From Gammaproteobacteria bacterium (lineage in GTDB: Bacteria > Pseudomonadota > Gammaproteobacteria > SURF-13), in assembly GCA_003599485.1 (NCBI GenBank), contig QZKM01000024.1, positions 1 through 37,044 of the forward strand: a stretch of 37,044 bases of DNA, read 5' to 3'. Within the stretch, counting starts at the first letter, position 1; the number at the start of each line of letters is the position of its first letter. Both the position numbers and the translations under genes were made by a program. The notes below the pieces were generated by a model that saw only the letters and a list, made by a program, of their open reading frames with translations, did no database searches and had not been told where the DNA came from. Of this stretch, positions 3,106 to 29,556 are shown piece after piece.

Positions 3106-3135
3106 TTGCCGGCCAGAGGGGTTTTGCTGTATAAT
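3106..3135 (+). promoter_or_regulatory. Predicted sigma-70 promoter of the rpsB operon
   Basis: A perfect -10 box TATAAT lies at 3130-3135, with TTGCCG at 3106-3111 as a -35 box and an 18-base spacer. Transcription would begin near 3142, giving an rpsB leader of about 115 bases. It sits in the gap between divergent map and rpsB. This is a prediction from consensus match only. Confidence 0.7.
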
Positions 3136-3141
3136 GAAAAA

Positions 3142-3256
3142 GTTTTTACTACACACATGCATCACTACCCCGCAGCGGGGTGCCGCCTGGCCTGATCCGG
3201 GCGGTTCGCTGCAGGGGGGTGCATGGAGGATCAACCCAAATCAAGGAGTATACAAC
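3142..3256 (+). promoter_or_regulatory. Structured rpsB leader, candidate S2 autoregulatory site
   Basis: The untranslated leader holds a 5-bp hairpin at 3168-3180 (CCCCG, loop CAG, CGGGG) and, just after it, an 8-bp stem formed by CCGCCTGG and CCGGGCGG with one G-U pair. A G-run with GGGGTGC occurs twice, at the base of the first hairpin and after the second stem. The ribosome site AAGGAG is at 3243-3248, about 8 bases before the ATG. In E. coli and relatives the rpsB leader is known to be bound by S2 to repress rpsB-tsf. That this leader does the same is inference from position and folding potential. Confidence 0.4.
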
Positions 3257-10710: not shown

Positions 10711-12993
10711 ATGAACAAGCTGTTGCGCGTCGTGTGGCTGTGCGCCGTGTTTACATCCACGGCCTGGGCGCTGGAGCCGTTCGTGGTCAAGGATATCCGC
10801 GTGGAGGGCCTGCAGCGCATTGCGGCGGGCACCCTCTTCAACTATCTGCCGCTCAAGGTGGGCGACACCCTGGACGAGGCGCGCTCGCAGGAGGCGATCC
10901 GCGCCTTGTTCAAGACCGGATTTTTCAAGGATGTGCGTCTGGAGCGCGACGGCGAGGTGCTGGTGGTGATCGTGGACGAGCGTCCGGCGATCGCCAGCAT
11001 CAAGTTCTTCGGCAACAAGGACATTGATACCGAGACGCTGACCAAGGCGTTGAAGGGACAGGGGCTGGCGGAGGGCGAGGTGTTCGATCGCGCGCTGCTG
11101 GACAAGATCGAGCAGGAACTGAAGCGCCAGTACTTCAGCCGCGGCAAATACGCGGTGAAGGTGACCACCACCGCGATGCCCCTGGAGCGTAACCGCATGG
11201 CGGTCACCATAGATATTTCGGAAGGCCGCGCCGCGCGCATCAAGGAGATCAACATCGTCGGCAACCAGGCATTCCCCGACGAGGACCTGCTGGATGAATT
11301 CCAGCTTACCACGCCCACGCTGATCTCGTTTTATACCGACAGCGACCAGTATTCCAAGCAAAAACTCTCCGCCGATCTGGAAACGCTGCGTTCGTTTTAT
11401 CTGGATCGCGGGTACATCAATTTCAACATTGACTCCACCCAGGTCTCGATCACGCCGGACAAACAGGATATCTACATCACCATCAACGTCACGGAAGGCG
11501 ACGTGTTCACCGTCAAGGAAACCAGGCTCGCGGGAGAACTGGTGGTGCCGGAAGAAGACATCGCTAAACTGATTGAGGTGGAAAAAGGCGGTGTGTTTTC
11601 GCGCAAGGCGGCCACGGAGTCGAGCGCCAGGATCACCGAGCGGCTGGGCGAGGAGGGTTATGCCTTCGCCAACGTGAATATCATTCCGGACATCATCCAG
11701 GCGGATAAGCAGGTGGGGCTCACCTTCTTCGTGGACCCGGGCAAGCGGGTGTACGTGCGGCGCATCAACTTCGCGGGCAACACCAAGACGCGCGACGAAG
11801 TGCTGCGGCGCGAGATGCGCCAGGTGGAGGGCGGCTGGATCTCAACGGAAAAGGTCAAACGCTCGCGCGCGCGCCTGGAAAAGCTCGGCTATTTTGAAGA
11901 GGTCAACGTAGAGACTCCCGCCGTGCCCGGCACGGCCGACCAGGTGGACGCGAACTTCACCGTGGTGGAAAAACCGTCGGGTAACCTGCTGGCGGGTCTG
12001 GGCTTCTCCCAGTCGCAGGGCATTATTTTCAACACCAGCGTGAGCCAGGAAAACTTTCTCGGCAGCGGCAAGCGCGTGAATTTCGCCTTCAACAACAGTG
12101 ACGTCAATACCACCTACAGCTTCGGCTATACCAATCCCTATTACACGCTGGATGGGGTGAGCCGCGGCTTCAGCCTGTTTTCCAGAAAGACCGATGCGGA
12201 CGAGGCCAACATCGCGCAATATACCACGGACACGCTGGGCGGTTTTGTCAACTTCGGCATTCCGGTTACCGAGTTTGACAGTGTGCAACTGGGCCTCGGT
12301 TACGAAAACATAGATATCAAGACCGGCACGGAGACACCAGCCGAATTCCGCAACTTCCTGGCCGCAAACGATACCGGTTTTGACGCAGTCAAGCTGTCCG
12401 CCGGCTGGGCGCATGACACGCGTGACCGCGCGGTGTTCGCCACGCAAGGCGTATTGCAGAATTTTTCGGCGGAACTGGGCGCGCCCGGCGGCAATATGCA
12501 GTATTATAAGGCGAGTTACCGCCACCAGTGGTTGCGTCCACTGGGCAAGCGCTGGGGTATCATGCTCAACGGCGACGTGGGTTATGGAGACGGCTACGGC
12601 GACACCACGGAACTTCCGTTTTTTGAGAATTTCTACAGCGGCGGCCCGCGTTCGGTGCGCGGCTTCAAGGAAAACAGCCTGGGTCCGCGCAGCGCCTCCA
12701 CCGGCCGGCCGCTGGGCGGCAATATGCGCCTGGTGGGCAACGCGGAACTGATTTTCCCCACGCCGTTTGTCAAGGACAGCAAGAGCGTGCGCCTGAGCGG
12801 GTTTCTGGACGCGGGGGGTGTATTCAGCAATCAAACCGGTTATGATTCCGGCGGGTTCCGTTATTCCACCGGCGTTAGCGGCCAATGGTTGTCCCCGCTC
12901 GGCGCGCTCACCGTGAGCATCGCCGTGCCGCTCAATGACAAGGGAACGGACGAGACGCAGATATTCCAATTTACCTTTGGCGCGCCTTTTTGA
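10711..12993 (+). CDS. bamA: Outer membrane protein assembly factor BamA
   Basis: Core of the BAM complex that folds beta-barrel proteins into the outer membrane. Start chosen at ATG 10711, giving a signal peptide (MNKLLRVVWLCAVFTSTAWA) and a 760-residue protein; upstream in-frame GTGs at 10675 and 10690 add only a non-family extension. Five POTRA domains follow (the first begins FVVKDIRVEGLQRIAAGTLF), then the 16-strand barrel with the conserved SVRGFKENSLGPR near residue 648. The chain ends FTFGAPF with the C-terminal Phe typical of outer-membrane barrels. Its stop codon lies at the left border of a multi-hairpin repeat that separates it from skp. Confidence 0.98.
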   Translation: MNKLLRVVWLCAVFTSTAWALEPFVVKDIRVEGLQRIAAGTLFNYLPLKVGDTLDEARSQEAIRALFKTGFFKDVRLERDGEVLVVIVDERPAIASIKFFGNKDIDTETLTKALKGQGLAEGEVFDRALLDKIEQELKRQYFSRGKYAVKVTTTAMPLERNRMAVTIDISEGRAARIKEINIVGNQAFPDEDLLDEFQLTTPTLISFYTDSDQYSKQKLSADLETLRSFYLDRGYINFNIDSTQVSITPDKQDIYITINVTEGDVFTVKETRLAGELVVPEEDIAKLIEVEKGGVFSRKAATESSARITERLGEEGYAFANVNIIPDIIQADKQVGLTFFVDPGKRVYVRRINFAGNTKTRDEVLRREMRQVEGGWISTEKVKRSRARLEKLGYFEEVNVETPAVPGTADQVDANFTVVEKPSGNLLAGLGFSQSQGIIFNTSVSQENFLGSGKRVNFAFNNSDVNTTYSFGYTNPYYTLDGVSRGFSLFSRKTDADEANIAQYTTDTLGGFVNFGIPVTEFDSVQLGLGYENIDIKTGTETPAEFRNFLAANDTGFDAVKLSAGWAHDTRDRAVFATQGVLQNFSAELGAPGGNMQYYKASYRHQWLRPLGKRWGIMLNGDVGYGDGYGDTTELPFFENFYSGGPRSVRGFKENSLGPRSASTGRPLGGNMRLVGNAELIFPTPFVKDSKSVRLSGFLDAGGVFSNQTGYDSGGFRYSTGVSGQWLSPLGALTVSIAVPLNDKGTDETQIFQFTFGAPF

Positions 12994-13145
12994 GGAAGCT
13001 CTGAATAAGCCCATCCTGGACTTCTCAGAGCACGAAAAGCAAAAACGCGGTTTTTGCTTTTCTTCATTTTTCAAACACTTCGTGTTTGAAAAATGGCGGC
13101 ACCTCCCTGTGCCGCAGGAACTTCTGGTTTAATCAGGAGTTCCCT
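12991..13145 (+). repeat. Multi-hairpin repeat, copy A (bamA-skp junction)
   Basis: About 150 bases made of successive hairpins: a bulged stem at 12998-13031; a perfect 13-bp stem at 13034-13062 with loop GCG; a 14-bp stem at 13065-13095 with loop TTC; a 7-bp stem at 13096-13115; and a 10-bp stem with one G-U at 13117-13143. The two ends are imperfect inverted repeats of each other (AGGAAGCTCTGAATAA at the left; AGGGAACTCCTGATTAA read from the right). A second copy without the last hairpin lies at 29418-29533 on the other strand. It resembles a non-autonomous, MITE-like element; no transposase is nearby. Confidence 0.8.
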
Positions 13146-13168
13146 AATTTATTTTTAGGAGTCGAAAC

Positions 13169-29417: not shown

Positions 29418-29533
29418 GCGGCACAAGGAGGTGCCGCCATTTTCCAAACACACAAGTGTCCGGAAAATGAAGCAAAGCAAAAATCACATTTTTGCTTTGT
29501 GTGGCTGGAAAAGTCCTGGACGGACTTTTCCAG
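29418..29533 (-). repeat. Multi-hairpin repeat, copy B (ispF/smr convergent gap)
   Basis: Reverse-orientation copy of the element at 12991-13145. Read on the minus strand: a perfect 12-bp stem (29505-29533), a perfect 12-bp stem (29473-29499), a 13-bp stem with two G-U pairs (29439-29468) and a 7-bp stem (29418-29437). Across the core of about 80 bases it differs from copy A by about ten substitutions and one indel; several changes keep pairing. The final hairpin of copy A is absent. An extra 7-bp hairpin (29534-29554) lies between it and the smr stop. It may act as a terminator or 3' stabiliser, but no T-run follows. Confidence 0.8.
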
Positions 29534-29556
29534 CATCCTGCCAGCGGCGCAGGATT

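Follow-up and report, generated by a model that had tools for sequence, protein, structure and literature searches.

A widespread IS5-type MITE with an unusual five-hairpin body and paired stem changes in Gammaproteobacteria

Introduction

What keeps the arms of a repeated hairpin element matched while their sequences change, and is it RNA that is being preserved? The question is raised by two intergenic sites in the window, the whole 37,044-nt stretch of contig QZKM01000024.1 analysed here, which belongs to a gammaproteobacterial genome of 1.69 Mb (50 contigs, 96% complete). An earlier note, made from the letters alone, had described two copies of a multi-hairpin element with paired substitutions in the stems, had seen both pointing the same way as the gene just upstream (bamA; smr) and had proposed that the element is selected as RNA in a 3′ untranslated region. 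Here we compare the two copies with their relatives and conclude that they are members of a dispersed family, an IS5-type MITE that is widespread and has an unusual body of five hairpins.

Two copies of one element in the window

Direct reading found matching hairpin clusters at both places, and folding was far more stable than that of dinucleotide-shuffled sequences, with −74 versus −37 kcal/mol for copy A (z −10.5) and −67.7 versus −32 kcal/mol for copy B (z −9.2). The limits given previously were roughly right and needed slight correction (Table 1). The shared core, announced as about 80 bases with about ten substitutions and one indel, corresponds to hairpins H2 to H4 and measures 82–83 nt, with ~11–12 substitutions and one indel in a loop. 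In H2, the first core stem, the loop-closing pair indeed changes from C-G to T-A; the outer pair is also exchanged on both sides, but it is the second pair and passes from A-T to C-G, not from G-C to C-G. In H3 the described T-A to C-G change is present, as are the two A-T pairs that become G.T on the element strand of copy B. Pair 1 of H2 is A.C in copy B, so that one pair is broken there.

Table 1. Positions of the two element copies and their parts in the window
Feature	Position	Strand	Remarks
Copy A	12994-13143	+	Type I MITE, 150 bp, five hairpins; in the bamA–ompH/skp gap, inserted at the stop codon of bamA
Copy A, left-hand target duplication	12990-12993	+	Now TTGA, containing the bamA stop TGA
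Copy A, left terminal inverted repeat	12994-13009	+	GGAAGCTCTGAATAAG; 5′ arm of H1
Copy A, H1	12998-13031	+	Loop region CATCCTGG
Copy A, H2	13034-13062	+	Followed by T-run TTCATTTTT on the + strand
Copy A, H3	13065-13095	+	CATTTTTCAA...TTGAAAAATG; arms provide the T-runs of H2 (+) and H4 (−)
Copy A, H4	13096-13115	+	GCGGCAC CTCCCT GTGCCGC; terminator-like on the − strand
Copy A, H5	13117-13143	+	3′ arm forms the right terminal inverted repeat (GGAACTCCTGATTAAAC read inward)
Copy A, right-hand target duplication	13144-13147	+	CTAA
Copy B	29418-29540	−	Type II MITE in the gap of the convergent genes ispF (+) and smr (−); eroded left end CAGGATGCTGGAAAAG, no H5 at the right end
Copy B, H1	29504-29534	−	GCTGGAAAAGTCC GTCCA GGACTTTTCCAGC
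Copy B, H2	29473-29499	−
Copy B, H3	29438-29469	−
Copy B, H4	29418-29437	−

The bamA–ompH junction is empty of the element in three other genomes (G001, G003 and G004). In G002, which represents a different genus from the host of copy A, the same bamA stop codon carries an independent, inverted and shortened relative (L260) with CTAG on both sides. At the smr–ispF junction, the relatives that were read contained no element. Elsewhere in the window, positions 3134-3235 (+) match the Rfam t44 RNA (RF00127) with 58.5 bits.

A dispersed family with a common anatomy

Searching the window's own genome retrieved the element at 20–30 places beyond copies A and B, which were fetched and compared side by side; the likeness of the two copies is therefore more than chance. 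In total ~30 copies of the hairpin element occur in this genome, all six genomes of the source organism's family carry it, and a sample of 369 gammaproteobacterial genomes contained 52 carriers, from 43 of 272 genera. Named carriers include Muproteobacteria, Acidiferrobacterales, Thiohalocapsa, Thiosymbion and Olavius symbiont genomes, together with one MAG labelled Nitrospirae. Pattern matches in Acinetobacter, Methylotenera, Geothermocultor and Salinivirgaceae were excluded from the family as single chance H3-like palindromes, and plasmid and phage records queried with a 151-bp copy returned no relative. The family was not found in Rfam, where the element matched no curated RNA family, or in the literature searched (mostly without subscription papers), in which literal sequence searches gave unrelated matches only; an earlier description is possible.

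The unit of ~150 bp consists of five consecutive hairpins in the order H1-H2-H3-H4-H5. Full copies measure 150–153 bp, some subtypes 161–165 bp, and copies with extra nested hairpins ~205–218 bp; hairpin order, spacing and length (150–153 or 152/161–163 bp) are conserved across many genera. The left terminal inverted repeat is the outer arm of H1 and the right one the outer arm of H5. Three end types are found on the common body, namely type I (GGAAGCTCTGAATAAG), type II (CAGGTTGTTGAAAAA) and type III (GGGGACCTTGAA), each with terminal inverted repeats, and the pairing of H1 to H5 is retained although the stem sequences differ wholesale between them. The outer arms of H3 are conserved in sequence, whereas its inner arms merely pair. 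Nearly every copy has RTCCNT as its H4 loop, invariably in the same orientation, and TCC is present in 81 of 85 well-paired H1 loops.

This single-orientation RTCCNT motif is common to the loops of H1, of H4 and of extra inserted hairpins, while the stems vary freely; in copy A the H4 loop lies at 13103-13108 and that of H1 at about 13014-13018. Extra hairpins (e.g. CGGCCGCTCCTGCGCATCCCTGCGCCCGCGGCATTGGGGCGTCCTGCCCGGC) are nested in H1, H2 or H4 at loci L016, L018, L022, L015 and L160-L163 and in the 205-bp copies of G129, and their occurrence in different genera amounts to modular growth of the element. A few copies are chimeric and combine a type II left end with a type I right end, as at L019:3070-3230 in the window's genome (G000:C13).

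Target-site duplications and a possible IS5 partner

The elements are short, numerous and dispersed and contain no transposase gene. Among copies with both ends located (54 of type I and 67 of type II), an exact 4-bp YTAR duplication flanks 76 of 121, compared with ~21 expected from shuffled pairing. Perfect 4-bp duplications border 38 of 54 type I copies (8.6 when shuffled) and 38 of 67 type II copies (12.5 when shuffled); duplication lengths of 2, 3, 5, 6 and 8 bp did not exceed chance. The main targets are TTAA, CTAA, CTAG and TTAG. Terminal inverted repeats together with 4-bp target duplications identify the element as mobile DNA, and the YTAR duplication is that of IS5-derived elements.

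The clearest picture of movement comes from genome G129, a single contig, in which identical 153- and 205-bp copies occupy different sites with different perfect duplications (CTAA, CTAG, TTAG, TTAA, TGAA and CAAG), a target duplication being present in 10 of 11 copies. The same genome encodes an IS5-family transposase (NF033581, 353 bits versus a cut-off of 140) on five copies of a 1158-bp insertion sequence with the ends GGAACTTCTGCAAAAG / GGATGCTCTGAACAAG; at least four of the five are flanked by YTAR duplications. One of these copies directly adjoins a hairpin element with the same kind of ends; at this locus (L317:820-2185) the MITE and the IS5 copy stand head to tail with one CTAA target in common. 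Terminal repeats, YTAR duplications and identical copies beside a similar-ended IS5 with the same target thus define an IS5-type MITE.

The G129 insertion sequence and the MITE are alike only over the terminal 16–17 bp (~88%). Since the ends are all they have in common, simple internal deletion of this IS5 would not produce the MITE, and on this comparison with the G129 insertion sequence an origin by internal deletion of a known IS5 copy was discarded. A search of the window's own genome for PF01609 (IS4/IS5-type DDE) yielded no transposase of that type; its mobiliser may have been lost, may be unassembled or may be of another family. The PF01609 transposases of G001 were rejected as partners, having no exact type I ends, and L152 has related GAGACCTCTGAACAAC ends. 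Viral contigs scanned with the IS5 transposase contained distant relatives only (45–54% identity).

Identical copies at new sites suggest movement in trans. We consider it very probable that the MITE is moved in trans by IS5-family transposases and that the paired stem changes are an effect at the level of DNA. Such a transposase would bind the terminal repeats, that is, the outer arms of H1 and H5, cut, and insert the element at YTAR, and insertions on the TAA or TAG stop codon of a gene or between genes would survive.

Orientation and stop codons

If the element were a structured RNA of 3′ untranslated regions, the transcript sense to the upstream gene would fold and protect or regulate the mRNA. 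The position of the copies accords with this at first sight: of 135 copies, 37 have an element end exactly at a stop codon, whereas 7% of YTAR sites overall are so placed, and none has an end at a start codon. The very stable folds are also in its favour. The orientation of the copies is against it. In tandem gene contexts, assigned from simple codon-based gene calls, 54 copies run with the genes and 51 against them (p = 0.85), so that the proposed agreement with neighbouring genes is random family-wide; convergent and divergent gaps hold 36 and 28 copies, the background gaps numbering 89 and 93. At stop codons, sense and antisense are about equal, with 18 copies meeting the codon at their left and 22 at their right end. 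The agreement of copy B with smr is uninformative, because ispF and smr are convergent and either orientation agrees with one of them.

The target sequence itself offers a reason for this placement. YTAR contains TAA and TAG, and an insertion there leaves the gene intact, which would account for the copies at stop codons; copy A matches the pattern exactly at the bamA stop. The family would thereby explain why such repeats accumulate exactly at stop codons.

Paired changes without a preference for G.T

The covariation proposed from two copies is present in large excess across the family. In an alignment of 108 distinct rows (A4), 96.7% of stem cells are paired, compared with 84.2% after shuffling and 44–49% when the partner is slid by 1–3 columns. 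Two-sided changes occur in 30 of 34 pairs of this alignment and in 425 cells versus 100 in shuffled data, and none of 500 shuffles reached the observed value on any covariation measure. Over 193 distinct cores, 95.8% of stem cells are Watson-Crick. This strong covariation favours the RNA reading.

RNA tolerates G.U and not A.C. In the family, A.C cells (130) are at least as frequent as G.T cells (57), also when three columns with one recurrent state are set aside (72 and 48), and the ratio is independent of gene direction, with 14 G.T to 30 A.C where genes run along the element and 17 to 33 where they are opposed (Fisher p = 1). In RNA genes, 78.5% of two-step compensations go via G-U (PMC8794818). 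A tRNA control for this comparison (32 G.T, 0 A.C) was unusable for A.C, since ARAGORN marks nothing but permitted pairs with its brackets. The share of transitions among paired changes, taken alone, also failed as a discriminator between DNA and RNA, being 67% here and 61% for rRNA (PMC8794818). Together with target duplications and recent copies, which are marks of mobile DNA, and the lack of an Rfam family, these observations leave selection as sense RNA very improbable. Orientation and the parity of G.T and A.C largely refute it already.

The paired changes look instead like DNA-level matching of the arms and not like the signature of an RNA made from one strand. Even where closest copies are separated by only one or two stem pairs, two-sided changes make up 20 of 50 and 40 of 72 differences, respectively, and this share of 40–56% is far beyond the yield of independent point changes. 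Transitions and transversions number 40:20 among these two-sided changes, a ratio equal to the 38:21 of one-sided changes. Both arm-to-arm copying and strand-symmetric selection on folded DNA fit this picture. Template switching creates and repairs hairpin stems (PMC8794818), and the two arms may be kept matched most simply by such hairpin-templated copying during replication, possibly reinforced by selection for hairpins. Two predictions of template switching were not seen: paired changes are not clustered (6 of 42 versus 8 of 74 close pairs), and no loop is inverted, RTCCNT of H4 being always in one orientation. As neither was found, selection on hairpins is not separable from copying.

What the hairpin body may do

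Two further readings concern the body and the forces that might act on it. The first is that of a portable two-way terminator, in which selection would keep H2, H3 and H4 so that insertions are less harmful or the element ends are shielded from transcriptional read-through. A T-run follows H2 on the + strand in 173 of 193 cores and H4 on the − strand in 150 of 193, and T-runs on the opposite sides of these hairpins are nearly absent (1 of 189 and 0 of 190). The outer arms of H3 supply both T-runs, so this reading would explain why those arms are conserved in sequence and the inner ones only in pairing. A terminator scan of copy A found H2, H4 and H5, three where 0.6 were expected. Conserved T-runs on both strands and scan hits at the same sites make two-way termination plausible from sequence, and back-to-back termination, by H2 and its T-run on one strand and by H4 and its T-run on the other, is a likely consequence of the body, judging from its match to the terminator consensus. 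Several details fit selection for it poorly: H2 is A+T-rich with few G-C pairs, the T-run after H4 begins two bases late, copies also lie between apparently co-transcribed genes (bamA-ompH), and the distribution of G.T and A.C reveals neither + strand selection in H2 nor clear − strand selection in H4. We therefore treat a selected two-way terminator as tentative, with somewhat less than an even prospect of being correct; it is compatible with the MITE reading and does not exclude it.

The second is selection on folded DNA, whether as hairpins on both strands, as a cruciform or as palindromes read by a dimeric protein, for transposition or replication. Strand-symmetric mismatches, the order, spacing and length conserved over many genera and the oriented loops of H4 and H1 are all consistent with it. 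The autonomous IS5 elements that were found, however, move without such hairpins, and no loop-binding protein is known from the present analysis; we think this reading rather less likely than not.

A conjecture that joins these threads, and to which we assign a limited chance, is that the five-hairpin body is itself selected, as folded DNA or as a two-way terminator, with the MITE spreading ready-made insulators onto stop codons and arm-to-arm copying renewing the stems. If this is true, such copying gives RNA-like covariation without RNA function, a warning against taking covariation in repeats as proof of RNA.

Relation to known systems

The preferred reading, that of an IS5-type MITE, makes this family a clear case in which textbook covariation, normally taken to prove a functional RNA, occurs in mobile DNA that is oriented at random and does not favour G.U. 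It also provides a natural experiment, replicated many times over, on how the arms of palindromes stay matched.

Its closest affinities are with IS5-family insertion sequences (NF033581) and the MITEs derived from them, which are alike in GG-starting terminal repeats of the GGAACNTCTGAATAAG type and in the 4-bp YTAR duplication, whereas the present element has no transposase, measures 150 bp, folds into five hairpins and has only the outer 16–17 bp in common with IS5. Other MITEs of bacteria, among them QMITE1/2 of Coxiella, Chunjie of Geobacter and Correia elements (PMC5896051, PMC10969869), are likewise short, gene-free and intergenic, with terminal repeats and stable folds. QMITE1 is reported to be one very long palindrome for which other genomes yielded no orthologues (PMC5896051); by comparison with the text of these papers rather than with their sequences, the present element differs in its five separate hairpins of fixed order and in its spread over the 43 of 272 sampled genera. 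REP and BIME sequences with RAYT (PMC3733652, PMC2817692) share the dispersed intergenic palindromes, the mosaic arrangement and possible termination, but REPs are 20–40 bp long with a GTAG or CGTC tag (PMC3733652, PMC2817692), and the element described here spans 150 bp and has terminal repeats and target duplications; identity with REP/BIME was rejected, direct reading having found neither tag at the stem feet. Finally, hairpins maintained by template switching (PMC8794818) resemble it in that double substitutions preserve stem pairing with no single-step intermediate; those hairpins belong to rRNA and other RNA genes, whereas here they form a mobile DNA repeat in which G.T does not exceed A.C.
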